A stretch of 64,000 bases of DNA from Prorocentrum cordatum (taxonomy: Eukaryota > Sar > Dinophyceae > Prorocentrales > Prorocentraceae), in assembly GCA_963575745.1 (NCBI GenBank), contig CAUYUJ010021170.1, positions 912,801 through 976,800 on the forward strand, in the 5' to 3' direction. Below, piece after piece: positions 6,561-44,271 of this stretch. Position 1 is the stretch's first letter; each line of letters begins with the position of its first letter. A program made the position numbers and the translations under genes. The notes beneath the pieces are model-generated. The model made no database searches. It worked only from the letters and a program-made list of their open reading frames with translations, and was not told the origin of the DNA.

Positions 6561-7745
6561 AGGGGGCCTCCGCTCCTCGCCCTGGCCGCTTCCAGGCACT
6601 CCCGGGGCCCATGGAGCCCGCCGAGCCCGCCGCCCGGCGGCAGCAGAGACCCCGCGGCGCTCCGAGGCCAAAGCCTCGAGGGGAGCGCGCGGGGGGGCTC
6701 TCTGCCAGCGCTGGCGGCGTCGCCCGGCGGTGACGAGGGCAGGAGCGCCGAAGAGGGTGAGGAAAAAACGGCATCCACTGCCTCTCCCTCCCCCTCTCCT
6801 CACCCGCCCTCCCTCCTCACCCAGATCCTCCTCCTCCTCCGGCGAAGCTCTCTTGCCCGTTCTTCGCCCCCTCTCGCCGGTGCACTTCGCGCCGGCCTGT
6901 CGTCTCGCCGGGCCCCTGTGCCGCTGGCGGCCTACACGGTGCGATCTGGCCCTCCCACCCCTTTCTGCAGTCCGCTGGCAGGGCCTGCCTGATGGCCTCG
7001 GCACATTTTCATTTTGCGGATGGTCAGAGATCGTGCTATCGGAACCCAGGGACATTTGTCGTCGAGCCTATACGCTCCCCGAGCTGCCCCGGGGCTTCTG
7101 CGGGCGATCCCAGGGCCATCGGGGAATAAGAATCTTCCCTGCGGCAATAGCTGAGACGCCAGTTTCTGATTGACATGCCTACTGCATGGGAGACGTCATG
7201 GCCCCGGTCACGACATCCCCCCTCTAGTCCCCACCCCCCTTCGACGCTGCCGACGTGAGCGGGGAGCACGGGGGCTTGGGACTCTTCCGATTCCCCAGAC
7301 TTGGCCGAACGCATGGCGTGAGCCAGTCGGGCCTTTTCCCCCGAGGCACCCGTTTCCCTCAGGACCCATCCCCTTCATGGTGGACGTTGCCTGAACCAGC
7401 GGGGCCTCCTCGGCTCCGAGGCCGGAGTGGATGCGCGCGGGGGAGGGAAACGCTCTTGACGCCGGCGTCGCCCGCCCGGGGCGAGCCCCAGACCCTATCT
7501 TTCTGTTTTTTTCTCAAGCCAGATCGATATGCGAGGGTCCCAGGGCCCGACATGTAGTGAAACAATGCATCGCCAGGATCTATGGGGTGGCCTTGTCCCG
7601 AATCTGCCCGACACCGGCGCGGACCTCAAAGTACCGCCGAGATGCCACAGCGCTCGCAGGGGCTTCGCGAGAGCGAGGCAGGGCGACGCCGTGCGCGTGA
7701 CAGGCAGTGTCGGCGGGTGGCGCCGACGGGTCAGTCGCTAGAGTT
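6561..7745. other. Intergenic, GC-rich, no gene recognised
   Basis: I see no conserved protein motif on either strand and no structural RNA. Open frames are Ala/Pro/Arg-rich, as expected from GC content. Confidence 0.4.
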
Positions 7746-16906: not shown

Positions 16907-17127
16907 TTCTCGACGGGGACACCAGGGCCAATCTCTGGGACGCCATTTCGTCGCCGCGGGGCGTCTCCTTGACAGCCAACGGGGAGGGGGCAACGGCCTC
17001 CACGGAGGCCGAGGTCGGACCTAGAACCAAAGACGAACGCACCCGCCCCTGCGGAGGCGCGGCCAGGGAAAAAGCGCTCTCTCCTACGCGACGGCCCCCA
17101 CGCCACGGCTCGAGGAGCCGACAAAAA

Positions 17128-17254
17128 AACAAATTCCTTGGCCGGAGCTGGACTCCCTCCCCCCCCTGGCGCTCGGAGCGCGCCAGAGGTGGCGCCAGAA
17201 GCGCAGCCAGGGTGACCAGCACAGGTCCAAGAAATCCGCGCGAAGCTCCGAAGA
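17128..17254. repeat. Foldback (MITE-like) element, copy 2
   Basis: It has the same layout as at 5427-5568. The left arm is decayed (TTCCTTGGCCGGAGCTGGAC). The hairpin core CCTGGCGCTC-GGA-GCGCGCCAG is kept. The right arm is well preserved (CAGGTCCAAGAAATCCGCGC followed by GAAGCTCCGAAG). Confidence 0.7.
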
Positions 17255-17741
17255 CGTCGTCCTCGAACGGCGACCAGTTCGACTCTGGAACTTGATGGGC
17301 CCCCGCGAGAGGGCGACGCTCCGCCACAGCAGCGCCGACACCCGCCGGAGCGGCTGCCCACGAGCCACGAGCCTTTCGGGGAGGGCCACGGTGCATGACA
17401 GCCGCTTGCCTTCTAGTGGGCGCCGATCATAAAAAAGGCCTTACGCGAGATGGCATAGCGCCCTTAATCATGCGGTGGCTTACGCGGGCCGCCCGCGCGG
17501 CGCACCGCACTTGAGGCGAGGCCGCTTGCGCGCGACCTTACGCGAGCAACTTGCGCACGAATGTCGGCGCGGACGGCCCCCTTTTTGTTTGCGTCGCTCG
17601 TGTGTCGTCTGCGCACCGCCCCCTTCCTCTCGGGCTCAGGAGCAGTCTGCTGGGGGGTGCCTGCCATCTCGCGGCGGGGACACGTCCCCACCAGCCCCCG
17701 TGGAGGGCCGCATCAGCGCGGACACCGCCACGCCCTCCGAT

Positions 17742-17842
17742 CAGTGGACGTGAGCTAGTGCAAAATTAGGTCGGAGGAGGAGGAGGACGAGGAGGGAGGA
17801 GGAGGAGAAGGAGGAGGAGGAGGAGGAGGAGGAAGAGGAGGA
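17742..17842. repeat. Shared flank plus (GGA)n at the 3' side of the LINE
   Basis: CAGTGGACGTGAGCTAGTGC leads into ATTAGGTC and then GGA triplets from 17773 to 17842. The flank and start of the repeat match 6341-6406. The LINE begins (3' end) directly after this tract. Confidence 0.85.
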
Positions 17843-17869
17843 CAGCGTACAGGGGAGGTCAGCTCCACT

Positions 17870-19459
17870 CTAGGAGGAGGGCTCGGCGGCACCAGACGCC
17901 GCAGCCGCTCGAATCGCAATCGGAAGCGGCGAGGAGGAAGAAGCGGGGAAGGAGCACGCAGCAGCAGGAGCAGAGCTCATCGGAGCGACGGACAGAGACG
18001 GGGTCGGGGAAAACGCCAGCGGCAGATCGAACGTCAAGGGAGAGGAGCGAGGGTAGACGGCAGAGGGCAGCAGCAGGGGGGTCACAAGGGACGAGGGAGG
18101 AAGAGCGGACAGGATGGCAGGCGTGGCATCGGGCGTGGGGGGGCAGGGCGGGGCGTGTGGGGCAAAAGAGGGCGCAGGGACAGTCGAGAAGATGCAGCGA
18201 CGGGAGGGCCTTGGAGGAGAGCACTCAGGGCAGGGTGGGATCCACGGCGCGGACCACAGGGAGTGAGGAGATAGACTCTGGGTCGACGGGCAGGCCACCA
18301 GGGTCCCAGAGGATCGCGAAGCGGGTCCTGGGGAAGTCATCGAAGAGCAGGAAGCACTTGGAGTCCAGGGCGCCATGGGAGCGGTTGCGGGTCCAGGAGA
18401 GGTAGCCAGGACATACCCTTGTCGAGAGCGCCGCACGATCATAGAGGAGACAGAGTCATGCCCAGCAGCCTGCGGTCGAAGGGGTAATGGGCACCCCTGC
18501 ATATGGCTAAGCGTTCTGTGAGCCGCCGACCAGTGAGACCACCCCTCGCAATTCACTCCAGAGGCCTGGCACGACTGGCGCGAGGAGCACCCGCCGCGAG
18601 GACTTTGCGTTCTAGCTTCCACAGTCGCAGCTCCAGCACCCAGCATCTTCAACTCCTCACAATTTACTCTATGAGCCTGGACACCTGGGCTCGAGGAGCA
18701 CCCAGTGCCAGGACTTGGCGTTCTGACATGGTCGGTACCCGATGAGAGCTCGATGTAGTCGTGGTCATCGCTGTGCTCGGCTCTGGGAGGCGTCGCAATG
18801 AGGGTCGCTGGTGTACCAGGTGTGGAGGGAGAAGAGAAGTTGCAGTCGTCGGAGTGGGCCGTGGGGACAAGCCGCGGTGTGAGGCAAGGTGATAGATTAT
18901 CATTCCAGTCCACGCCAGAGCCAGGGCAGCGAACTCCATCAGTGTCGACGCAGGGCTGGTTGTCCGAGTCCAGGTACGTCGAGGTGTGCCCATGACTGCC
19001 AGCGTCCATTCCATCATCATCATAGGGCTCTTCATGTTGATCAGGATGCGAGTCGCCGTCCTCGTCGGAGCTGGAAGAGGTCGAGGAAGTCGACGACTGT
19101 TGTGGTAGGCGGTGGAGAGTCAATGCCTCAGGTGGCTGCCATTTCTTATGAAGTTGAGCGTCAGGCTTGGCCAACCTTAGGTTTCTGACAGCAGCTCTCG
19201 CACTGGAACGAAGATCGTTAGAAGTGACATAAAGACGGAAGCGCATATTGTGGTAGATGTTGAAGGCCACTGCCAAGGTTTCAATGTGTTTGAGGTCGGG
19301 GAGCCGAAGACCCAGGCGGTCAGGGAGGAGTGGCAGCATCTCATATCCCAATGCTTGCTTGGTACACCGCAGTCCAAAGCGGACGGCATCGCATGTAGTG
19401 GCATTGTCGATCAGCATGTCCTCGACAACCGAAGATACATGGGCGAGAGCCTCCAGCAT
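17870..19459 (-). pseudogene. LINE ORF2 C-terminal tail in a shifted frame, plus Ser/Pro-rich 3' region
   Basis: The ORF2 frame ends at 19341. Protein-like sequence continues in another frame: GYEMLPLLPDRLGLRLPDLK, then ETLAVAFNIYHNMRFRLYVT and SSARAAVRNLRLAKPDAQLH. This resembles the helical tail that follows the zinc knuckle in dinoflagellate LINE ORF2 proteins. I therefore infer a single frameshift near 19345-19360. The rest, from about residue 120, is Ser/Asp/Pro-rich and may be 3' untranslated sequence. It holds a direct repeat with a period of about 107 bp (about 18546-18620 and 18654-18728), visible as two similar blocks around GVQAHRVNCEE and CQASGVNCEG. Confidence 0.6.
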
Positions 19460-22400
19460 ACTTAATACGCGAAGCGGTGAGCCATCCAGAGCAATAAGTT
19501 TTGATAACCGGCATGGCCCAGCTCATAGGCACCAGTGAGAGAAGATCACCAATCTTTGTCCAGGCCACTCGATCCAGAAACGGCTCCCATTCATGTACAT
19601 ATTTCAATAGCCGTCGTTGCACCAGCAAAGCAAGAGGGACAGGCGTGGTGAGCATCTCCCGAAGTGCTCGTGTGGCAGCCCGTTGCGGCTTGGGCTTCCT
19701 GTCGTTAACTTGGAGCTCCTGGGCGATGGCCTGCACGCACGTGTCATTGATCTCGGGAGGATAAGCCGCCTCTCTGCCAGATTGCAGAACCGATGCATAT
19801 CCCAGCAGGAGCGACGGGGATTGCCAGTGCGTGCCCGTATGGTCAAGCGCATCTCCTCGCGCCCGTGTCGCCGCCAGTGGCGCATCATCAAACTGGCCTT
19901 CCATGAGGGAGTGTCTCCATTCGGACTCCAGCCGTCGGAAGCGCTCAAGAATGGTAGTGTGATTAGAGAACGTGACTAGCGCGGCTCGAGCATAGGCAGC
20001 AGCGCACGAATGGAGCAACAGTGGGATATGAGGGCCTCCCCATTCGCCGATCTGGGCCCAACCTGCCGAGGTGAGCATGCCAAGGGGGGCTCTGAAGACC
20101 TGCGCCAGAATCCCCAGTTCCAGAGCAGCGTGCCGTTGAGGGAGCGGAACAAATTGGGCCACGTAGGAGACCACAGAGAACACCCTGGAGGAGTACAGAA
20201 CACCATTAATACTAGCCGGGGCAGCCCCAGACCCAAGTAAGCGAGCCCGCAATTTGAGCTTCTGCAGCGGGGCGAGCCACTGCATGTCAATCGTGGCGGC
20301 GGGGCCCAGCAGGAGGCCCAGGTAGAGGATCTGGGAGGTCACTTCGAAGGCGCTCCAGGCAGGGACGAGGCGTTCCACAAGAGACATAGTGTGGAGCTGG
20401 AGGGGCTCGGAGAACTCCGCCTTGAGCGGGACGATTTTGCACTTAATGTGTTTAAGCTTCAGCCCTGTGAGACACTCAGTGACCGCCATCACATCATACA
20501 GAACTTGTAGGTGCTTTGCTTCATACACAACCGCCCCAATATCATCAGCACACGCCCGAGCGATACCATATCCAGGGGTCTCCAGAGTATCTTCCAGCGC
20601 ACAGAGAAAGGGGGCTGTGCCGAGGGCGTATAGGCTCCCTGAGAGCCCACATCCTTGGATAATCCCAGATCTCAGCCAGTATATATGGATGATCTGGCCA
20701 GCGTGGGCCACGACTCCTTGAATAGCGAGGTACAGCCACGAGAGGAACCACATGAGAGGCCCAGGGAGCCCAAGCTTATTCATCAGCATCAGCAGGTACT
20801 CTTGGGAGAGACTGGGGAACGCCTGGCCATAATCAAACGAGATCAAGAGGGGGTCGCACAGGTCAGAGCGAGGGTGAGCCGCGGCTAGCCTTCCAATGCC
20901 GTCGAGTTCGATCACATTGTAACCGAAGTTACGGCCGACTACAAACCCTCTTTGCGAGCGGGGGACCACTTCCTCCACCACTTTCCGAAGCGAGCGATTG
21001 ACGACGGAAGTCATGATTTTCAGGTCGGTGTTTCGGAGTCCCAGCACCCGAATTTTGTCAGCAGACCGCGTACAGCCTCCAGAGGCTTCGTCTTCTTCCT
21101 CCGAACCTTTGGGCAAGAAGGCCTGCAGCGCGACACTCGCGGCATCGAAGAGAGTCCCACCATTGAGCACCCAGTCGAGAGAGTTGCACAGCACGTCGAC
21201 GCAGCACTCAGAAGCATTCCAAGCTGCATATGGGATGCCGTCCACCCCAGGTGCGGAGCGCCGTGCACCTCGCGCAGCACGACGTATAGCAGCTTTGGTA
21301 GGAGGTGGGACTTCGCAATGGATGGGGGCTTTCAGATGATCCTGGAGGTAGGCCTCTATGCGGGGGGCTGGGACAGAGCCTCGGGAGAAGACGGGGCGCC
21401 AGTAAGTACTCAAAGCTTGGAAACGATCTTCAGGGGAGTGGGATAAGACAGGTCCTGTCCGCACCTTCTGCAAGATGAGACGGCGAGAGAAGGGGGCCCA
21501 GATGGCCGCCTTCCGTTCCAGAAGCTGCTGGCAACGGCGGGTGGAAAGAGGACGATGAGAGGCAGAGAGACCAGCGACATGATCAGCATTGGCTTGCAGT
21601 TCTTTTTCCAGAAGCCGCATGTGGACACCGTCTGACCACAGATGAAATGATTCAGGGTGTCGAAGGCGAACTTGTGAGCCTTCAATTTGCAGTGCGTCTG
21701 ATGCCCACTGCGATGTCGAAATAAGTCGCCGAGCCAGCGGAGCGTCTTGCCTCCATACGGCGCGAGCGCAGCTGCGGGCCACGAGGATCGCCGTCTCATC
21801 ACTCTCCGCCTTCAGCGTGAAGAGCATGTCACGCACCTCCCGCGCAGCTTCTTTGAGCATCTCTTTGAAATGCTCCTGATAAATAGAGCCAGCATGCGCA
21901 TCAATAGCGTTCTGGCCATCAGCAACCATCCCTTCGATACGCTTCTTGAAGAGCGGGTCCAGGAAGATGTGCCGCGGGATAGCTTGTTCACCCCGAGGCC
22001 TGTGATGTCGCTGGCGCAACGTTGTCACCAGCGCAGCATGATCAGATATTTGAGCACGGGACAATGCCTCTGGCTCCCCAACTGAGGTGGATTCAGCATG
22101 GACTTGGCACATCATCCATCCAGGAAGTGAGCAGAAGAACCTGTCGATGCAACTCACCGAGTTGGTGTGCTTCGTATAGTGTGTAGCCGCCGACGAAGAA
22201 ACCTCGAGTAGAGCCCCCAGAGAGCGTAGCCAACGGGCAGCTTGGGCACGATGATTCCGAGGATCTGATGCACGCGCAGGAAGTGGGCGATGAAGCACAA
22301 GGGCTTCGTCGGGGCCGAAATTCAGGTCGCCCTGCACAATAACCAGGTGGTGAGTGGGGTCAGACGCCGCCGCGACCCGATACTTGTCGATCTGCTCACA

Positions 22401-22847
22401 GACCATGTCCACCTGGGTGCTCGTGAGGCCGTGGTTGTGAATATTAAAATGCGTCAGCTGAAGGCCACGTCTATGCACATCAACTTGTAGGACCCTTCCT
22501 GGGATGAGCGGCGTGGCACAGCTGGACGTAGCTCCGTCAAGAGCAAGTCGAGGAAGAATGGTAGCGACACCTCCAGCACCCGATCCCCCTTGATCAGCTG
22601 CACAAAACGAGGCGTGGACTACGGCATGGGAATGGGCCTGAAGCACGAACTGCTCCAGTTGGACACGGTCGGCATGAACTTCTTGCATCGCCAGCACTGT
22701 GGACTGCAAGTGAATCTGCTGTAGATATCGTAACTTGGGAATGGCCTTCGCGCCGTGGTACTGTAGGAGCGCACGCGCGTTCCAGGTAGCGCATCTCAAA
22801 GCAGAGCCCCCATCTCTAGCTTGAGGAAGGTTGAACATCTGTAGCAT
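19341..22847 (-). CDS. LINE ORF2: endonuclease-reverse transcriptase
   Basis: This frame of 1168 codons starts with an ATG 10 bases after the ORF1 stop. Residues 15-275 form an endonuclease/exonuclease/phosphatase domain: TWN at 21-23, QEVH at 55-58 with the catalytic Glu, GDLNF at 173-177 and SDHAAL at 268-273. The reverse transcriptase follows: SAPGVDGIPYAAW at 531-543, RGFVVGR at 633-639, FDYGQAFPS at 671-679 with the first catalytic Asp, QGCGLSGSLY at 731-740 and CADDIG at 766-771 with the paired Asp (ADD, where most families have YADD). Near the end is a Cys/His knuckle, CIFGC-x8-H-x3-C. The stop at 19341 appears premature, because similar tail sequence continues in another frame. The core catalytic residues are intact, so activity may have been lost only recently. 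Confidence 0.93.
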   Translation of the reverse strand: MLQMFNLPQARDGGSALRCATWNARALLQYHGAKAIPKLRYLQQIHLQSTVLAMQEVHADRVQLEQFVLQAHSHAVVHASFCAADQGGSGAGGVATILPRLALDGATSSCATPLIPGRVLQVDVHRRGLQLTHFNIHNHGLTSTQVDMVCEQIDKYRVAAASDPTHHLVIVQGDLNFGPDEALVLHRPLPARASDPRNHRAQAARWLRSLGALLEVSSSAATHYTKHTNSVSCIDRFFCSLPGWMMCQVHAESTSVGEPEALSRAQISDHAALVTTLRQRHHRPRGEQAIPRHIFLDPLFKKRIEGMVADGQNAIDAHAGSIYQEHFKEMLKEAAREVRDMLFTLKAESDETAILVARSCARAVWRQDAPLARRLISTSQWASDALQIEGSQVRLRHPESFHLWSDGVHMRLLEKELQANADHVAGLSASHRPLSTRRCQQLLERKAAIWAPFSRRLILQKVRTGPVLSHSPEDRFQALSTYWRPVFSRGSVPAPRIEAYLQDHLKAPIHCEVPPPTKAAIRRAARGARRSAPGVDGIPYAAWNASECCVDVLCNSLDWVLNGGTLFDAASVALQAFLPKGSEEEDEASGGCTRSADKIRVLGLRNTDLKIMTSVVNRSLRKVVEEVVPRSQRGFVVGRNFGYNVIELDGIGRLAAAHPRSDLCDPLLISFDYGQAFPSLSQEYLLMLMNKLGLPGPLMWFLSWLYLAIQGVVAHAGQIIHIYWLRSGIIQGCGLSGSLYALGTAPFLCALEDTLETPGYGIARACADDIGAVVYEAKHLQVLYDVMAVTECLTGLKLKHIKCKIVPLKAEFSEPLQLHTMSLVERLVPAWSAFEVTSQILYLGLLLGPAATIDMQWLAPLQKLKLRARLLGSGAAPASINGVLYSSRVFSVVSYVAQFVPLPQRHAALELGILAQVFRAPLGMLTSAGWAQIGEWGGPHIPLLLHSCAAAYARAALVTFSNHTTILERFRRLESEWRHSLMEGQFDDAPLAATRARGDALDHTGTHWQSPSLLLGYASVLQSGREAAYPPEINDTCVQAIAQELQVNDRKPKPQRAATRALREMLTTPVPLALLVQRRLLKYVHEWEPFLDRVAWTKIGDLLSLVPMSWAMPVIKTYCSGWLTASRIKYAGGSRPCIFGCRGHADRQCHYMRCRPLWTAVYQASIGI

Positions 22848-22857
22848 CTCGTCAAAG

Positions 22858-24174
22858 TCACCACTGCGGGGGTGGCGGTGGTGCAATGGTGGATTGGACC
22901 AGCTCACGGATCTCGTGCTTGGCGATGCCGATTTCATTGAGGCCCTCGTCGTTGTAGCGGATGTCAAAGGGCTGGTCGTCAGGTTGGGCGGCGAGCTTGA
23001 GGATGTGCGTCCACCCGCATCGTAGGACACCACGCTCCCTGTCCACAACCCAGCGTCCGTCGCATTTGCCAGCCATGGCTGTGCGTAGCTTCCTGAGCGC
23101 CATTTCCGTTTTGATATGCTTTGGGTTTTTGTCTGGTCCGAGATGGAGACGAGCAGGAGCGGATCCTGAGACCGCAGCTTCGAAGATACGCCATTCATCA
23201 TTCTGCCTGAGATTGGATAAGACTTTGTTGACATATTTGGAAGCCAGTCCCACACTGCCGTTGAAAGAGACCAGGTACCTTCTACTTGGCATCGGTCCAG
23301 CGGACTTGATAGAGTATGATGAAGCGTCCAGGCCCAGTTCCGACAAGAAAGGGGTAAGTGATGCGCGCACAGAGTCGATCCCAACCATCTTCGTAGCCAT
23401 TGCAACGACAATCGAGGGGTCTTCAGCACGATCGAAGGAGGGCGGCACTGTGGGAGCCTTCTCGGAGCGTTTGGCGACCATGAGCTCGCTGCGGAGCTGC
23501 TCCATCTGCTGGCGCAGGTTGGCGAGGTCCGCAGTGTGCTTCTCCACATCAATAGAGAGCGTGTTGACATGTGAGCCGAGAGCGTCAATCTTGGACTGTA
23601 GGCCGCGGTGAATGGAGTCAATATGCGGGCGGACTGTGGCCATAATCTGCTGGTCGATTTCTTTCGGCTGGGCGGTGATCTGCACTCGCAGCGATTCCAG
23701 TGTGTCAAGAATAGATTTGTTTGAAGATTGCACCGTTGCTCCAACGGTAGATCCCGCAAGAGATTCCAGTTCGGATCGTAGTTCTCCGAATTGTTCAGCG
23801 ACTGCGTTAGCTGCAACGTGTCTGATATAGTCATCATCATATTGTGGCTGCTGCGGCGGATGTGAGGCGGGGTCACGATGGGCACCAGCAGGAGAAGAAC
23901 CAGGAGTACACTGAGAATCACCACGGCCACCGAACAGAGCGGAGCCAACAGCCCCTGCTGCGCGGGCGGCCATGCCAGCGACACCCTTGCCCCCGGAGAT
24001 GCTACCCTTGCCGTCCTCAGAGCGCAGGTATTTGTGCTCGGGCGAGCCACGGTCTTGACGGTCATCCGCCTGGTCATCATCAGGAAAGGTGGGCATGTCG
24101 TCGAGCTCCTTGGCCACCATGGCGAGCGAAGCAGCGTCAGGGAGACCCATGGCGCCAGCATCGCTCGACAGCAC
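22858..24174 (-). CDS. LINE ORF1: coiled-coil nucleic-acid-binding-type protein
   Basis: This is a 438-residue frame with no stops. The N-terminus is acidic and Gly/Ala-rich. Residues about 110-230 form heptad-like stretches (FGELRSELESLAG, LDTLESLRVQ, ADLANLRQQMEQLRSELMVA), consistent with coiled-coil trimerisation as in LINE ORF1 proteins. A compact C-terminal half (residues 240-430) contains RRYLVSFNGSVGLASKYVNK and EMALRKLRTAMAGKCDGRWV, resembling an RNA-recognition plus C-terminal-domain arrangement, but no diagnostic motif is clear. It ends PPPPPQW, and ORF2 starts 10 bases downstream, which suits termination-reinitiation. An upstream ATG adjoining the spliced leader at 24305 is in a different frame. 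Confidence 0.8.
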   Translation of the reverse strand: MLSSDAGAMGLPDAASLAMVAKELDDMPTFPDDDQADDRQDRGSPEHKYLRSEDGKGSISGGKGVAGMAARAAGAVGSALFGGRGDSQCTPGSSPAGAHRDPASHPPQQPQYDDDYIRHVAANAVAEQFGELRSELESLAGSTVGATVQSSNKSILDTLESLRVQITAQPKEIDQQIMATVRPHIDSIHRGLQSKIDALGSHVNTLSIDVEKHTADLANLRQQMEQLRSELMVAKRSEKAPTVPPSFDRAEDPSIVVAMATKMVGIDSVRASLTPFLSELGLDASSYSIKSAGPMPSRRYLVSFNGSVGLASKYVNKVLSNLRQNDEWRIFEAAVSGSAPARLHLGPDKNPKHIKTEMALRKLRTAMAGKCDGRWVVDRERGVLRCGWTHILKLAAQPDDQPFDIRYNDEGLNEIGIAKHEIRELVQSTIAPPPPPQW

Positions 24175-24305
24175 AGGAACGGGAAAAGCCTCCGTTTACC
24201 CGTGGAGGCGAGCGACAGGATGAGGAAGAGATTCTGCCAGACCGCAAAGGGTCTTGCCAGCCGCGGACTAGCGGTATCCACTTGTTCCCCTGTGGAACCT
24301 GGCAT

Positions 24306-24327
24306 CTTGAGCCAAAATGGCTACGGA
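24306..24327 (-). promoter_or_regulatory. Dinoflagellate spliced leader (DinoSL) relic, perfect
   Basis: Read on the minus strand, the 22 bases begin TCCGTAGCC, continue ATTTT and end GGCTCAAG. They match the conserved DinoSL at every position (first base D = T). The leader is joined directly to the LINE 5' leader, with ATG as the next three bases (24305-24303). In living cells this sequence is added to nuclear mRNAs by trans-splicing and is not normally encoded next to genes. Its presence in the genome therefore marks reverse transcription of a mature mRNA. Confidence 0.97.
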
Positions 24328-24396
24328 GGAGGAGGAAGAGGAGGAGGAGGAGGAGGAAGAGGAGGAGGAGGAGGAGGAGGAGGAGGAGGAGGAGGG
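24325..24396. repeat. (GGA)n microsatellite at the 5' side of the LINE
   Basis: About 24 GGA/GAA triplets abut the first bases of the DinoSL. Because the leader starts with TCC on the minus strand, the first bases of the junction are ambiguous. Confidence 0.95.
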
Positions 24397-25194
24397 AGCC
24401 CTTCGGACCTGGCCAGGGCTGCCCTCCGATCAGGACTTCGTGGCAGGGACAGCCGCGGCGGCGAGAACTTCCTGCGGGCTCAAAAGGCGGCCAAACCAAC
24501 TAATTGGCGGGCCCATCCACTCCAGATTCTCGCACCTCGAGCCAGCCCTCCTTAGATCCCAGAGATCCGACGCATAGATTCTGGTTCCATGCGCATGGGG
24601 CCCCCAGAAGTCCCGAACCCTTCCCCACGGACTGCTGAAACCCACTCTTTGTTTGCTGGCCCCAGGGCCCGGCGAGGGCCCCCAGAGGCCCAAGACCCTG
24701 CAAAACCTCTGGTCTGGTTTTCCTTACGCGCTGGAGGAATGGAATCCGCCTTGCCCGAGGTCCGACGCCGAAAAACAAAAACACAACACCGCGAAACATC
24801 ATGTCACGAGCCATAGATCCAATCTTCCAGCAGCACTCCCCGAGCCAGATTGACCTGCGAGTGCCCCGCCTAGGCCCCAATCCGTGCGACAACGCGCGGA
24901 CGTGGCAGAATCGCGATGCCGGGCTCTCCGGGCCCAGACCCCCGACGCCATGACTTTCTCATGACGTCGGCCCCTGGGGCCGCCAGAGGTCTGGAACTTG
25001 TCCTTGGGATGGCTGTCTATCCCGAGTCGTTCTTTCAGGCCCCGGGGGCCCGGCATCTAGACCCAATTTTTGTTGCCGCTTTCTTCTGGCCAAATCGTTA
25101 CTGCGAGGATCCTGGTCCCCGAAACCAGGCGACAGGGCCCAGAAGAAAATGCAGCGCCAGGATCCTGCAGGGTCCAATCCAGATTTCTTCACGA
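24397..25194. other. Intergenic, no gene recognised
   Basis: GC-rich sequence with scattered GGCCCCAGGG-type words. I see no domain or RNA on either strand. Confidence 0.4.
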
Positions 25195-25305
25195 CCCAAG
25201 GGGGACCGTTCGGGACGATCCTGGCACCCTGGGGACGCCCTCTGCGAGGCGGAGCTCCTGGAGGGCATCCCGAGACTGGGGAACCTCGAAGAAGCGACGA
25301 TAACA
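25195..25305 (+). repeat. Dispersed repeat family G, copy 1
   Basis: GTTCGGGACGATCCTGGCAC, then GAGGCGGAGCTCCTGGAG and ACTGGGGAACCTCGAAGAAG. The same order of words occurs at 57100-57230 (plus) and, reversed, at 32690-32810. The element has no coding signature. Confidence 0.65.
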
Positions 25306-25609
25306 GAGGAAGAAAAAGGCATACACACTTGCGCGGTCACGGCCTCGCGCGCGGCGACGAGGCGGAGCCAGTCGAGCAGTCGGAGCGAGCGACCGCCGCG
25401 GCCAGGCACTCAGACACGGGACCACACTTGTTTCGCTTCTGCGCGCACCGAAAATCCCGACAGTGGACGCTTCATTCCTGCCCCGACCTCGCGCAAGCAG
25501 CCGTCTCCCTGACGAATTGGCATCACTACAGCCACGAACCCTCTCTCGATCGAGCGGTCCTCTCATCTGGCGCACCCGCCGTAACCTCCAGCCTTCCCGC
25601 GGGGCGGGC

Positions 25610-34689: not shown

Positions 34690-34828
34690 GCTGCTTCTAC
34701 TACGCAGACAACTACACATGGTAGTACTTGTACTCGTATCCGTACTCGTACTGCTGATACAACGACTACTTCTACTACTACCACGACTACTGCTACGACT
34801 ACTAGTACTAGTACTACTACTGCGACTC

Positions 34829-34868
<40 letters not shown>

Positions 34869-34869
34869 G

Positions 34870-34910
<41 letters not shown>

Positions 34911-34999
34911 AACTACTACTACTACTACTACGACGACGACTATTTCCACGAATTCTACTGCTACTACTATCACTACAGCAACTATGGCGACTACAACGT

Positions 35000-35045
<46 letters not shown>

Positions 35046-35152
35046 CACTGCTACTACTACTTCTACTACTACTGCTACGACAACGACTACGACTACTACG
35101 GTTAAGGCTGCTACTACGACTACAGCTACGACTACTCCTACTTTTACTTGTG

Positions 35153-35185
<33 letters not shown>

Positions 35186-35533
35186 TCACTACGGCTAGTA
35201 CTAGTGCTACGACTACCGCTACTACAACTACTACGACGACTACTATTTCACTGAATAAGAGTACGACTACTACGACCGATACTACTACGACTACTACGAC
35301 TACTACTACTAATAGTCTTGATGCCCCTACTACTACTAGTGGAATTACGACTACGACTATTACTACGGCGACGACGGCTACGACTACGACTTCTATTACT
35401 ACTACTTCTACGACTACTGATATAACTGCTACGGCTGCTAGTACTACTACGACAAGTGATACTACTTCTGCAACTACTGCTACTACTGCTACTACTACTA
35501 CTACTGCTACTACTACGACTACTACTACTACTG

Positions 35534-35569
<36 letters not shown>

Positions 35570-35655
35570 TACCATACTACCACTACTGAAAGAAGTACGA
35601 CTACGACTATCCCCACGACTACTACCACGAATTCCAGCACGACTATGACCAATAT

Positions 35656-35720
<65 letters not shown>

Positions 35721-36031
35721 GTACTACTACGACGACTACTCCTACTACTACTTATACGACTAAAGCTAGTCCTACTATTACTACTACTACTACTACGAAT
35801 ATTGCTCGTGGAAATTCCGTAGAACCCCTGCTACGACTATGGCTACTACTATTACTACTACTATTACTTTTAATGCTGGCATCAAATCAATCAGTACATA
35901 CCACACACATACGACTTACTACAAACTACCACTGATTACTACTACTACTACTACTCCTACTACTACTAGTTCGACTACAAGTGCTACGGCTACTACTACC
36001 ACAACTAATACTACTACAACTACGGCGACTG

Positions 36032-36095
<64 letters not shown>

Positions 36096-36262
36096 ACTTA
36101 CTACACCAACTACTACTGCGACGACTACTGCTGCTGCTACTGCTACTACTACTGATACTACTTCTACGACTACGACTGCTACTATTACCGCTACTACTAC
36201 TAGTTCGACTACAACTGCTACGGCTACTACTACCACAACTAGTACTACTACAACTACGACGG

Positions 36263-36326
<64 letters not shown>

Positions 36327-36445
36327 ACGTACTATACGTACTACACCAACTACTACTGCGACCACTACTGCTGCTGCTGCTGCTGCTACTACTACTACTA
36401 CGACTACTACTAGTACTACTACTACTAGCGCTACTACTTCTACGA

Positions 36446-36505
<60 letters not shown>

Positions 36506-36519
36506 TACTACTACAACTA

Positions 36520-36567
<48 letters not shown>

Positions 36568-36894
36568 TTACTACTACTACTACTGGTACTGCCAAGACAG
36601 ACGATCAATCCAAAACTGCTACTACTACCGCTACTACTACAAATACTACTACGTCTACGGCTACGGTCAGCAGGTATCACTACCAACGCGCTGTGATACA
36701 ACGACCACTTGTTTTATTTAAAATACTTCTGCCAATGCATGCTACGACTATATACTGCGTACGACATACTGCATGCCACGGGTCCAACAACACGACTATA
36801 GACTGCGTGCAACGACTATATACCGCGTACGACGACGATTCCAACAACTAGTGGCACTACGACTACTACTACTATTACGACGACAGCTACTTCC

Positions 36895-36950
<56 letters not shown>

Positions 36951-36976
36951 TACTACTACTACCACTACCACTGCCA

Positions 36977-37031
<55 letters not shown>

Positions 37032-37277
37032 GACTGCTGCTATTACTCCCAACACTACGGTCACTACTACTGCTACTCCTACCACTACTATTACTACTAC
37101 TACTACGACTACTAGGATCACTACTAGTATTACCACTACTACGAGTGCGACTACTACTACAGCTACCACCACAACTACTACTGCCACTTCCAATACACCA
37201 GAAACCTAGTACACAAACGATTGCGGCTACTACGACTGCTACTACTAGTAGTAGTACTACTACCACTACCACTACCA

Positions 37278-37335
<58 letters not shown>

Positions 37336-37780
37336 CACTACAACTACCACTACAACTACTACTGCTACTACTACAACTACTACTACTGCGACTGCTGCTT
37401 CTGCTGCTTGCTCCTCTTCGCTTCCCTTATTCATGTGCTCCCCCTCCCCCCCTCCCCTTGGTCCTTCCCCCCCGCAATTACCTTTCCAGTTGGAATTGAT
37501 ACCACCGAAACACCCCACCATGCCATCCTTCCTATAGACACGCACTTGAGAAAAGGCCAGCCAAACCAAAACATCTTAACTTACAACACAACCCTTAACT
37601 TCCGAATATGATATGGTTCCAAAAAACTGGGACGACGACTACTGCGGCCACGGCTACTACTACAACTGCTATTATCACTACGACTGCTACTACGACTACT
37701 ACTGCCACTACTACTAGTACTACTACTACTACTACTACTACTCCTACTACTACTACTACTACTACTACTACTGCTACTAT

Positions 37781-37834
<54 letters not shown>

Positions 37835-38425
37835 GACCCTTACTAAAAACACCACTACTACTAAGAATACGACTACTACGACCACTTCTACTACTATTGC
37901 AGCTACTTCTACAGTGAAGTACTTACGGCTACGACTACGACAACGTCCAGTCTTACTCCTACTATATCTAGCTCTACTTCTACTTCAAAGGCGACTACGG
38001 GTATTATTCATAAAACGACCACTACGACCCCTAGTACTACCACTGCTAGCACTACTGCGATTATTAATACTACGACTACTACTACAAATACGACGGCCAC
38101 TACCACTGCTATTACAGCGACTACTAATACCACTCTTGCAACGACTTCAGCTACTACTACAACAACTGCTACTACGATTACCACTGCCACTACCAGCACC
38201 ACTGCTACTCGCACTACCACTACCACTACTACTACTACGACGACTACCACTATTTCTGCTACTACTACTACGACTACTACTACGAATACGACTACTACTA
38301 CTATCACTACTACTACTATCACTACTACTGCTACTACTACTACAACGACTACTAGTACTACTGCGACTACCACCACTACTACTACGACCAATACGAATAC
38401 TACTACGACTACTACGACTACTACG

Positions 38426-38480
<55 letters not shown>

Positions 38481-38733
38481 ATACTACTACTACTACTACT
38501 ACCACTACTACTGCTACTACCACTACTACTACTACTGTGCCTACTTCTACGACTACTAGATCTACGACTACTACGACTACTACGACTACTACCACCACTG
38601 CTGCTACTACGACTACTAGTAGTACCACGGCTACCACTACTACTACTACTACCACCATTACTACTACTCGTACTATTACAACTACTTCGGCCACTGGTAC
38701 ACTTACTACCACTACTACTAGTACTACTACTAG

Positions 38734-38811
<78 letters not shown>

Positions 38812-38990
38812 CCCTACTACTGCTACGACTACTATTACTACCAATACGAACCTGACTACGACTACGATTACGACTACTACGGCCACTACGACTACGACTA
38901 CGGCTACTACTATTACTACTACTACTACGACTACGACTAGTACTACTACTACAAGTACTACAACTACAAGTACTACTACTACTGCTACTG

Positions 38991-39044
<54 letters not shown>

Positions 39045-39062
39045 GTACTACTGCTACTACTT

Positions 39063-39123
<61 letters not shown>

Positions 39124-39378
39124 CGCTTCCACTACTACGACGACGACTACGACTACTTCTATAACTACGACTTCCACTACCACGAGTGCTACTGCTACTG
39201 CTACTAGTACTACTACCATTACTGCCACTACTACTACTACTATCACCACTACTACTACTACTACTGCAAATACTATTACTACTGCAACTACTACTACCGC
39301 TACAACGACTACTACTATACTACGACTACTACTGCTACACTACTACTACTACTACTGCTACTACTACCACTACTACTG

Positions 39379-39435
<57 letters not shown>

Positions 39436-39479
39436 TTCGTACTACTGCTTCCAATTCTACCACTACGACTACAACAGCA

Positions 39480-39518
<39 letters not shown>

Positions 39519-39630
39519 GCTGCTACTACTACTACTACTACTACCACTACTAGTACTACTACTACTAGTAGTACGATTACTACTACTACGACTACTACTA
39601 CAACAACAACTGCTACTACTACTACTACTG
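34690..39630 (+). repeat. Giant degenerate (ACT)n microsatellite, about 4.9 kb
   Basis: ACT triplets dominate, with ACG, ACA, ACC, GCT, AGT and ATT variants. Long perfect runs occur at about 36028-36095, 36262-36326, 38422-38478, 38740-38812, 39000-39042 and 39075-39122. Less repetitive islands lie at about 35800-35935, 36590-36850, 37390-37640 and 37905-38000. A nearly pure (ACG)n block sits at 36892-36950. Variants fall at all three triplet positions, which argues against coding constraint. Poly-Thr, poly-Leu/Tyr, poly-Val and poly-Ser frames are therefore artefacts. Confidence 0.97.
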
Positions 39631-40350: not shown

Positions 40351-42446
40351 ATTATCCTGGCGAAAGACCCAACCATAAGCAATTGTTGGTAACGCGTTGT
40401 GGGTGCCGCTTTCGGTGGGGCTCCATATGGGGCCACGAAGCGCTGCCTTGGATGGGGGAACCGCATGCGGACTGCGCCACCGGGGCGGACCTTCGGTGGA
40501 GCTCCCTATGGGGCTACGAAACGCTGCCCTGGGTGGGGGAACCGCATGCGAACTGCGCCACTGGGGCCTTCGGTGGAGCTCCCTATGGTGCCACGAAACG
40601 CTGCCCTGGGTGGGGGAAGCGCATGCGAACTGCGCCACGGGGGCTTTCGGTGGAGCTCCCCATGGGGCCACGAAGCGCTGCCCTGGGTGGGGGAACCGCA
40701 TGCGAGAGCAGCCACTGGGGCCTTCGGTGGAGCTCCCTATGGGGCCACGAAACGCTGCCCTGGGTGGGGGAACCGCATGCGAAGCAGCCCACTGGGGCCT
40801 TCGGTGGAGCTCCCTATGGGGCCACGAAGCGCTGCCCTGGGTGGGGGAACCGCATGCGAACACCCCCACTGGGGCCTTCGGTGGAGCTCCCTATGGGGCC
40901 ACGAAACGCTGCCCTGGGTGGGGGAACCGCATGCGAACACCCCCACTGGGGCCTTCGGTGGAGCTCCCTATGGGGCTACGAAACGCTGCCCTGGGTGGGG
41001 GAACCGCATGCGAACACCCCCACTGGGGCCTTCGGTGGAGCTCCCTATGGGGCCACGAAACGCTGCCCTGGGTGGGGGAACCGCATGCGAACACCCCCAC
41101 TGGGGCCTTCGGTGGAGCTCCCTATGGGGCCACGAAACGCTGCCCTGGGTGGGGGAACCGCATGCGAACACCCCCACTGGGGCCTTCGGTGGAGCTCCCT
41201 ATGGGGCCACGAAACGCTGCCCTGGGTGGGGGAACCGCATGCGAACACCCCCACCTTCGGTGGAGCTCCCTATGGGGCTACGGAACCGCATGCGAACACC
41301 CCCACTGGGGCCTTCGGTGGAGCTCCCTATGGGGCCACGAAACGCTGCCCTGGGTGGGGGAACCGCATGCGAACACCCCCACTGGGGCCTTCGGTGGAGC
41401 TCCCTATGGGGCCACGAAACGCTGCCCTGGGTGGGGGAACCGCATGCGAACACCCCCACTGGGGCCTTCGGTGGAGCTCCCTATGGGGCTACGAAACGCT
41501 GCCCTGGGTGGGGGAACCGCATGCGAACACCCCCACTGGGGCCTTCGGTGGAGCTCCCTATGGGGCTACGAAACGCTGCCCTGGGTGGGGGAACCGCATG
41601 CGAACACCCCCACTGGGGCCTTCGGTGGAGCTCCCTATGGGGCCACGAAACGCTGCCCTGGGTGGGGGAACCGCATGCGAACACCCCCACTGGGGCCTTC
41701 GGTGGAGCTCCCTATGGGGCCACGAAACGCTGCCCTGGGTGGGGGAACCGCATGCGAACACCCCCACTGGGGCCTTCGGTGGAGCTCCCTATGGGGCCAC
41801 GAAACGCTGCCCTGGGTGGGGGAACCGCATGCGAACACCCCCACTGGGGCCTTCGGTGGAGCTCCCTATGGGGCTACGAAACGCTGCCCTGGGTGGGGGA
41901 ACCGCATGCGAACACCCCCACTGGGGCCTTCGGTGGAGCTCCCTATGGGGCCACGAAACGCTGCCCTGGGTGGGGGAACCGCATGCGAACACCCCCACTG
42001 GGGCCTTCGGTGGAGCTCCCTATGGGGCCACGAAACGCTGCCCTGGGTGGGGGAACCGCATGCGAACACCCCCACTGGGGCCTTCGGTGGAGCTCCCTAT
42101 GGGGCTACGAAACGCTGCCCTGGGTGGGGGAATGCGAACGCCTTCGGTGGAGCTCCCTATGGGGCCACGAAACGCTGCCCTGGGTGAACCGCATGCGAAC
42201 ACCCCCACTGGGGCCTTCGGTGGAGCTCCCTATGGGGCCACGAAACGCTGCCCTGGGTGGGGGAACCGCATGCGAACACCCCCACTGGGGCCTTCGGTGG
42301 AGCTCCCTATGGGGCTACGAAACGCGTGAGAGGTGCGCCGAGAGCAGAGGCAAGGAGGGGGAGGAGGGAGGAGAGGAGGAGGAGGAGGAACGCGGGGCAC
42401 CGTCTCTTCAAAACGAGGACCCAACGCCACAGGATGGTTGGGAAAA
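40351..42446 (+). repeat. Higher-order duplication, unit 1 (2.1 kb)
   Basis: It begins ATTATCCTGGCGAAAGACCC and ends GGATGGTTGGGAAAAA. The next base starts the same sequence again. The interior is a 77-bp satellite array (40410-42324) and a unique GA-rich end segment. Both junctions carry GGAAAAA, consistent with unequal exchange at a short homology. Confidence 0.9.
40410..42324 (+). repeat. 77-bp satellite array 1, about 25 units
   Basis: The unit begins CCTTCGGTGGAGCTCCCTAT and contains GAAACGCTGCCCTGGGTGGG and AACCGCATGCGAAC. The first five units carry the variant ACTGCGCCAC in place of ACACCCCCAC; later units are nearly identical. Truncated units occur near 41250-41290 and 42130-42190. 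Since 77 is not a multiple of three, all three forward frames cycle through the unit and stay open for about 2 kb. I regard this as a property of the unit, not evidence for a protein. Confidence 0.97.
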
Positions 42447-44271
42447 ATTATCCTGGCGAAAGACCCAACCATAAGCAATTGTTGGTAACGCGTTGTGGGT
42501 GCCGCTTTCGGTGGGGCTCCATATGAGGCCACGAAGCGCTGCCTTGGATGGGGGAACCGCATGCGGACTGCGCCACCGGGGCGGGCCTTCGGTGGAGCTC
42601 CCTATGGGGCTACGAAACGCTGCCCTGGGTGGGGGAACCGCATGCGAACTGCGCCACTGGGGCCTTCGGTGGAGCTCCCTATGGTGCCACGAAACGCTGC
42701 CCTGGGTGGGGGAAGCGCATGCGAACTGCGCCACGGGGGCTTTCGGTGGAGCTCCCCATGGGGCCACGAAGCGCTGCCCTGGGTGGGGGAACCGCATGCG
42801 AACACCCCCACTGGGGCCTTCGGTGGAGCTCCCTATGGGGCCACGAAACGCTGCCCTGGGTGGGGGAACCGCATGCGAACACCCCCACTGGGGCCTTCGG
42901 TGGAGCTCCCTATGGGGCCACGAAACGCTGCCCTGGGTGGGGGAACCGCATGCGAACACCCCCACTGGGGCCTTCGGTGGAGCTCCCTATGGGGCCACGA
43001 AACGCTGCCCTGGGTGGGGGAACCGCATGCGAACACCCCCACTGGGGCCTTCGGTGGAGCTCCCTATGGGGCCACGAAACGCTGCCCTGGGTGGGGGAAC
43101 CGCATGCGAACACCCCCACTGGGGCCTTCGGTGGAGCTCCCTATGGGGCTACGAAACGCTGCCCTGGGTGGGGGAACCGCATGCGAACACCCCCACTGGG
43201 GCCTTCGGTGGAGCTCCCTATGGGGCCGAAACGAAACGCTGCCCTGGGTGGGGGAACCGCATGCGAACACCCCCACTGGGGCCTTCGGTGGAGCTCCCTA
43301 TGGGGCTACGACGAACCGCATGCGAACACCCCCACTGGGGCCTTCGGTGGAGCTCCCTATGGGGCCACGAAACGCTGCCCTGGGTGGGGGAACCGCATGC
43401 GAACACCCCCACTGGGGCCTTCGGTGGAGCTCCCTATGGGGCTACGAAACGCTGCCCTGGGTGGGGGAACCGCATGCGAACACCCCCACTGGGGCCTTCG
43501 GTGGAGCTCCCTATGGGGCCACGAAACGCTGCCCTGGGTGGGGGAACCGCATGCGAACACCCCCACTGGGGCCTTCGGTGGAGCTCCCTATGGGGCTACG
43601 AAACGCTGCCCTGGGTGGGGGAACCGCATGCGAACACCCCCACTGGGGCCTTCGGTGGAGCTCCCTATGGGGCCACGAAACGCTGCCCTGGGTGGGGGAA
43701 CCGCATGCGAACACCCCCACTGGGGCCTTCGGTGGAGCTCCCTATGGGGCCACGAAACGCTGCCCTGGGTGGGGGAACCGCATGCGAACACCCCCACTGG
43801 GGCCTTCGGTGGAGCTCCCTATGGGGCCACGAAACGCTGCCCTGGGTGGGGGAACCGCATGCGAACACCCCCACTGGGGCCTTCGGTGGAGCTCCCTATG
43901 GGGCCACGAAACGCTGCCCTGGGTGGGGGAACCGCATGCGAACACCCCCACTGGGGCCTTCGGTGGAGCTCCCTATGGGGCTACGAAACGCTGCCCTGGG
44001 TGGGGGAACCGCATGCGAACGCCCCCACTGGGGCCTTCGGTGGAGCTCCCTATGGGGCCACGAAACGCTGCCCTGGGTAGGGGAACCGCATGCGAACACC
44101 CCCACTGGGGCCTTCGGTGGAGCTCCCTATGGGGCCACGAAACGCGTGAGAGGTGTGCCGAGAGCAGAGGCAAGGAGGGGGAGGAGGGAGGAGGAGGGGG
44201 AGGAAGGAGGGGAACGCGGGGCACCGTCTCTTCAAAACGAGGACCCAACACCACAGGATGGTTGGGAAAAA
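42447..44271 (+). repeat. Higher-order duplication, unit 2 (1.8 kb)
   Basis: It has the same left flank, satellite array and right flank as 40351-42446. It is about 270 bases shorter, close to three or four satellite units. The right flank again ends GGTTGGGAAAAA. Confidence 0.9.
42506..44145 (+). repeat. 77-bp satellite array 2, about 21 units
   Basis: The consensus is the same as in array 1. The leading units again carry the ACTGCGCCAC variant. Irregular units lie near 43225-43240 (an extra GAAAC) and 43308-43322 (a deletion). Confidence 0.97.

Follow-up and report, generated by a model that had tools for sequence, protein, structure and literature searches.

Results

A LINE headed by the spliced leader lies between two microsatellite arrays

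The window, by which we mean the whole 64-kb stretch of the Prorocentrum cordatum assembly that was analysed (G000:C20321:912801-976800), carries on its minus strand a perfect copy of the 22-nt dinoflagellate spliced leader (DinoSL, SL below), TCCGTAGCCATTTTGGCTCAAG, at 24306-24327. This copy, with 0 mismatches, is the only match with ≤3 mismatches in the 64 kb; as 100 shuffles yielded 0 such matches, chance was rejected as its origin. The inserted element, which like all its parts reads on the minus strand, extends from 24327 to 17843 and begins with the intact SL, whose first base is T. Two (TCC)n arrays enclose it, one directly 5' of the SL (24328-24395; detected with TRF and matched at other SL places) and one directly 3' of the element (17773-17842); we read them as the two halves of a split target microsatellite. 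An ATG at 24305 directly follows the SL, after which come a 155-nt 5' leader reaching to the ATG of ORF1 (24151-24305), ORF1 itself (22858-24150, with its ATG at about 24150 and its stop at 22858; homologous to P0008 and P0005-P0007) and ORF2 (19341-22799; P0005 homology from 22799). The leader contains an SL-proximal hairpin, GGATA(CCGC)TAGTCC(GCGG), at 24261-24279, whose loop is conserved and whose stem varies with compensation among relatives. In the part at 17870-19459 the C-terminus of ORF2 is continued in another frame (P0005 homology 19318-19193) and followed by a Ser/Pro-rich stretch, and the element ends in GTACGCTG at 17843-17850. An earlier note on this DNA had described a perfect DinoSL abutting the 5' leader of a LINE on its coding strand, and this description stands, with the leader, ORF1 and ORF2 downstream of the SL.

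ORF2 encodes an Exo_endo_phos-type endonuclease and a reverse transcriptase. In the window copy RVT_1 is matched at 3.3e-11 and Exo_endo_phos at 5.5e-5, the latter with 23.5 bits against a cut-off of 24.5 and thus 1 bit under it; both domains are above the cut-off in two other SL-headed loci described below, L012 and L014. Endonuclease and reverse transcriptase in one ORF, with an ORF1 upstream that has homologues in P0005-P0008, identify a non-LTR (LINE) element. We found no LTRs: 17000-25500 holds no direct repeat longer than 37 nt, the longest families being the microsatellite and one 37-nt pair. An ORF of 1654 aa opens right after the SL, and we rejected it as one protein because its first part shows ORF1 homology in another frame; judged from the reading frames, the long ORF from the post-SL ATG is an accident of frame over ORF1. 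A frameshift, seen as a change in the frame of P0005 homology between about 19347 and 19318, interrupts ORF2, so that the window copy is not autonomous and the earlier note's description of it as an autonomous retrotransposon is not borne out.

The six protein relatives that we found are all from Prorocentrum cordatum, with identity of up to 89% over part of the query. A tblastn search with nine proteins gave no second LINE in the 64-kb window, and back-translated patterns gave no LINE relatives in IMG/VR, where records of the own genome have possibly been left out. An Rfam scan of 17000-25500 gave no 5' ribozyme, only two sub-threshold matches up to E=1, one to a lncRNA and one to a snoRNA family. 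An insertion into an SL RNA gene of the SLACS/CRE type is not what the locus shows, since (TCC)n forms both flanks and the window contains no second SL at ≤3 mismatches.

The (TCC)n arrays match over 18-21 nt at both edges of the element, but 10 of 16 in-phase cuts of the arrays would match too, and an interruption-matched duplication was accordingly given no weight. Outside the arrays lies a 13-bp direct repeat, CTGATCGGAGGGC, at 24433-24421 and 17744-17732, which may alternatively be taken for the target-site duplication of the window copy. Such a match arose in 14 of 200,000 random pairs with repeats masked, and in the unmasked control in 884 of 200,000, or 501 of 200,000 for complex 13-mers. 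A 31-nt tail beside the 3' copy of this repeat recurs at 6441-6338 with 94% identity, together with adjoining imperfect (TCC)n, inside another (CCT)n; the 3' tail pattern was found in none of the viral or genome contigs searched. Two further likenesses came to nothing. A 27-nt stretch upstream of the array resembles the leader, but 15% of random pairs reach an equal score, and the likeness was dropped. For the flank beside the second tail copy, one test gave chance level, with 42% of random windows matching equally well; in another test it was the best among 11 other array flanks, but in an unrelated GC-rich part.

Elsewhere the window contains a 4.9-kb degenerate (ACT)n tract (34765-39629) and a 3.7-kb array of a 77-bp unit (40411-44145), and long ORFs run on the plus strand of this repeat region.

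Diverged LINE families start exactly at the spliced leader

In several diverged LINE families the SL is the exact starting point, and protein identity to the window LINE and to database relatives is mostly 20-40%. Taking the first array past the ORF2 homology as the 3' edge, we found the same repeat type at both ends in six of the eight LINE loci checked, in three repeat types overall, the outcome expected of insertion into a microsatellite. The distances between the SL and the 3' array in these six are 6041 nt (L012, with an open 1584-aa frame for endonuclease and reverse transcriptase and an SL relict), 5225 nt (L014, with AT on both sides and both enzyme domains), 5039 nt (L017, with a LINE match of 1.5e-16), 5991 nt (L018, with GGA/AGG), 5627 nt (L020) and 5803 nt (L031); the pieces of L017 and L018 that were tested gave no Pfam domain. 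In the other two, L026 has no 3' array within 7.5 kb and L008 is too short a locus for the check. At a further place, L004, the leader is present and 8.5 kb contain no LINE protein.

The 3' ends of seven elements, the window copy included, carry no poly(A) tail, and in six of them, L017 being the exception, ACG occurs in the last 9 nt. To the eye, the 3' end of the LINE is similar to the exon/intron junction of an SL: that of L031 (about 6788-6802) reads CTCAAGGTACGTTCA, and the SL on L003 (4354-4320) is followed by GTACGC. The repeat remaining behind the 3' end of the first SL-headed LINE of L031 has itself received another SL-headed insertion (6856), and one microsatellite can thus be hit more than once.

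Leader insertions often adjoin microsatellites at the places surveyed

The assembly searched (4,128,499,153 bases in 21,875 contigs) contains 14,218 exact SL 21-mers (7201 + 7017), and the reversed control 0. We analysed 86 of 100 listed SL places, which lie on contigs C1 to C114 of the 21,875 and are no random sample; all LINE copies in this survey were found through an intact SL. A simple-repeat array stands directly 5' of the SL in 62 of the 86 listed places (CCT in 40, GGA in 16, CA in 4, AT in 1 and CAT in 1) and is absent from 24. The same classifier assigns 8.0% of the window positions, and 6.2% of the positions in 18 SL-centred loci, to repeats; among the first 46 places an array lies upstream in 36 (P 5e-31 against the window background). 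The first leader base is T in 78 of the 86 listed places, and 10 of them have an exact tandem SL relict. We considered that an upstream pyrimidine tract is kept as a splice signal, which is unlikely as a general rule because GGA arrays occur too, at 16 against 40 for CCT in the 86 places; in the first 46 the count is 23 to 9 (two-sided P 0.02).

A LINE protein follows on the same strand in at least 19 of the 86 listed places, a lower bound because many loci hold little downstream sequence (about 1.35 kb in sixty, about 1.5 kb in six). The 5' arrays of these 19 are CCT in 13, GGA in 2 and AT in 1, with none called by the classifier in 3; a hand count gives 28 of 86 places with either LINE protein or the hairpin described below. 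Among the 67 places without LINE protein, 46 are at a repeat and 21 are not, and landing at repeats is therefore a general trait of SL insertions and not special to LINEs.

The searches also brought up SL copies of other kinds. Three near-identical SL-headed units with the same non-repeat flank lie within about 9 kb on C39 (L061-L063) and are probably a tandem duplication of one SL-bearing gene. DinoSL copies occur in contigs binned to Dehalococcoidia genomes (L003, 4334-4354; L002, 32-52); the one on L003 is followed by GT and is perhaps an SL RNA gene, that is, misbinned DNA. A viral-like contig (L001, IMGVR_UViG_3300045993_001077; 1780-2913) holds two perfect DinoSL copies. Outside the insert it has 18% GC and an ORF for a GT41-type glycosyltransferase; one of the two DinoSL copies stands at the head of a stretch of 49% GC with a 254-aa ORF that ends in an A-rich run. 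The insert resembles a dinoflagellate mRNA that entered a viral genome by retroposition.

Shared leaders, leader relicts and a hairpin behind the junction

Clustering of the 300 nt after the SL placed 49 of 87 places, the window included, in 13 groups. The group of the window has 16 members, of which 14 lie in CCT arrays, one in CA and one in none. Another group lies in GGA arrays in 4 of 4 members, with a LINE protein found in one of them, and in the L014 group one member adjoins AT and the other three have no clear array. A LINE protein was also found in four further groups, two with three members each and two with two, which lie entirely in CCT; the six groups without LINE protein comprise three that are mixed, two without array and one with CCT in both members. 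Independent copies thus share one repeat type, as microsatellite targeting implies, in 14 of 16 members of the CCT group and in all four of the GGA group. The element bodies have diverged, blastn matches to the window element being confined to 31-42 nt of five leaders. The landing in microsatellites is not mentioned in the earlier note.

The SL or its relicts stand directly 5' of mRNA-derived sequence, the arrangement of DinoSL retrocopies. With 2 mismatches allowed, SL relicts are absent from 11 of the 16 members of the window's group; 4 members carry a single relict and 1 carries two. By the logic of mRNA recycling, as outlined in the pertinent passages of PMC3229502, a relict arises when an SL-bearing copy is transcribed, trans-spliced at an internal AG and inserted again. 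The relicts in 5 of 16 members therefore indicate that SL-bearing copies were transcribed and inserted again, in repeated rounds.

In the matching stretch of the leaders, 17 of 87 places, the window included, show a hairpin with a TRKTCC loop and a 4-bp stem, which lies 30-31 or 43-45 nt behind the SL once relicts are stripped. It occurs in 0 of 1044 control windows and in 1 of 87 reversed sequences. Six stem types keep the pairing (CCGC/GCGG in 9 places, CCCT/AGGG in 2, CCTC/GAGG in 2, CTGC/GCAG in 2, CCCC/GGGG in 1 and GCTC/GAGC in 1), and this covariation is the stronger part of the evidence because the hairpin was sought after the sequences had been seen. In five further places, among them L038 and L090, which belong to the leader families, the loop is present and the stem is not. 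A two-hairpin fold of nine chosen leaders was weak, with 4 of 300 column shuffles as good, and the hairpin with the TRKTCC loop alone held up in the wider test.

Discussion

How LINEs retain their 5' end is a standing question, to which an internal promoter and a 5' ribozyme are the known answers. Our data suggest another one for Prorocentrum cordatum. The SL in the window is most plausibly the genuine 5' end of the insert, and the window probably holds a full-length but frameshifted LINE copy whose template for transposition was a trans-spliced mRNA. The earlier note had proposed that the element re-inserted from its own trans-spliced mRNA. This is supported as far as the SL is the 5' end of the insert and other LINE copies and families start at the SL. 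It had further suggested that host trans-splicing would be part of the element's life cycle, which gains support from the 0, 1 or 2 relicts within the window's leader group, the trace of repeated rounds.

Other histories could leave an SL at this position. The SL may already have been internal at insertion, with the RNA start 93 nt upstream of it, between the CTGATCGGAGGGC duplications. The 13-bp match, which is unlikely by chance once repeats are masked (14/200,000), and the recurrence at 6441-6338 of the 31-nt tail before its 3' copy speak for such an arrangement, but six other SL-headed LINE loci end directly at the same type of repeat on both sides and a repeat adjoins the SL in 62 of the 86 listed places, and we regard it as very improbable. 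The 13-bp repeat and the 31-nt tail probably derive from an older repeat element, which would have brought the (TCC)n microsatellite in which the LINE landed. One may also suppose that these LINEs normally transpose from leaderless transcripts with a promoter of their own and that SL-bearing insertions are a small, easily found fraction, a concern that the SL-first sampling of our survey makes natural. Against this, 19 of 86 SL places have a LINE protein, which would scale to roughly 3000 of the 14,218 if these places, no random sample, were typical, and the nearly fixed spacing of SL and hairpin (30-31 or 43-45 nt) would follow from an SL junction that forms the regular 5' end; we consider this route unlikely.

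A master-gene model accepts trans-spliced templates and denies the cycle: a few SL-less source loci would make trans-spliced LINE mRNAs, the SL-bearing copies would be one-step and mostly dead products, and the SL would mark LINE retrocopies as it marks host retrogenes. Host retrogenes do carry the same mark in the passages of PMC6050394 that bear on it, the window copy is frameshifted, and 11 of the 16 members of its leader group lack a relict. However, the one or two relicts in the other five indicate that SL-bearing copies were transcribed and re-inserted, and L012 combines a relict with an open 1584-aa frame for endonuclease and reverse transcriptase. The model is weakened by the relicts, and we think it quite unlikely to be correct.

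In the cycle that we favor, with the trans-spliced LINE mRNA as template, a LINE copy would be transcribed from outside, and its RNA would receive the capped DinoSL from the host spliceosome at a fixed acceptor beside the leader, as the constant junction suggests. The LINE endonuclease would then open a microsatellite, mostly (CCT)n in the window's group, and the reverse transcriptase would copy the mRNA through the SL, whose base 1 lies flush with the repeat at the junctions observed. Once inserted, the SL would itself supply AG acceptors, of which the terminal one, when used, would renew the leader exactly and an internal one would leave a tandem relict of the kind seen in the copies. The host leader may in this way stand in for the internal promoter or 5' ribozyme of other LINEs in keeping the 5' end, and host mRNA capping by trans-splicing appears to do the LINE's 5'-end job. 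We are evenly divided on the wider proposal that a group of LINE families gave up its own 5' end, with trans-splicing defining the terminus, the hairpin marking the RNA, family-specific microsatellites serving as targets and the SL's AG as the next acceptor.

If the proposed cycle is true, LINE machinery already working on SL-bearing RNA would be a likely engine for the many SL-tagged retrogenes of dinoflagellates. The repeat location of the SL places without LINE protein (46/67) would fit this idea, being what we would expect if the LINE machinery also moves host mRNAs.

Several known systems share parts of this arrangement. SLACS, CRE and CZAR of trypanosomatids are LINEs linked to the spliced leader and insert into SL RNA genes; unlike them, the elements described here have the leader at their own 5' end and microsatellite flanks. 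Dinoflagellate mRNA recycling and DinoSL retrogenes were reportedly the subject of work by Slamovits and Keeling in 2008. DinoSL retrogenes and their relicts are well described for host genes in the relevant parts of the literature (PMC6050394, PMC12014239, PMC7245778), and our elements resemble them in stemming from SL-bearing mRNAs that were reverse-transcribed and reinserted, and in their tandem relicts, which are cut off at an internal AG (compare the corresponding passages of PMC6050394 and PMC3229502). In those accounts, however, the cargo is a host gene and a retrotransposon the presumed helper, whereas in our case LINEs of several families are themselves the cargo, with a microsatellite target. 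No report of SL-headed LINE families appeared among the listed open-licence PMC papers. The two-ORF LINEs of dinoflagellates described as SymbioLINE-Dnmt are similar in layout and differ in that their upstream ORF carries a DNA methyltransferase (PMC5890265, in the portions concerned); the main text of that paper has 'spliced' and 'leader' 0 times and mentions trans-splicing a single time, as a trait of the host. The target-specific LINEs of microsatellites and RNA genes in the Utopia paper likewise insert into repetitive sequence, microsatellites among it, and have a restriction-like endonuclease according to the abstract (PMC4640811), whereas here an Exo_endo_phos domain is found and the host leader forms the 5' end. 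The LINEs L1Tc and ingi of trypanosomatids likewise inhabit a host with SL trans-splicing and polycistronic transcription; in contrast to the elements studied here, L1Tc, as characterized in PMC8190864, combines an HDV-like 5' ribozyme with an internal Pr77 promoter and makes transcripts that are unspliced, which is the opposite solution.
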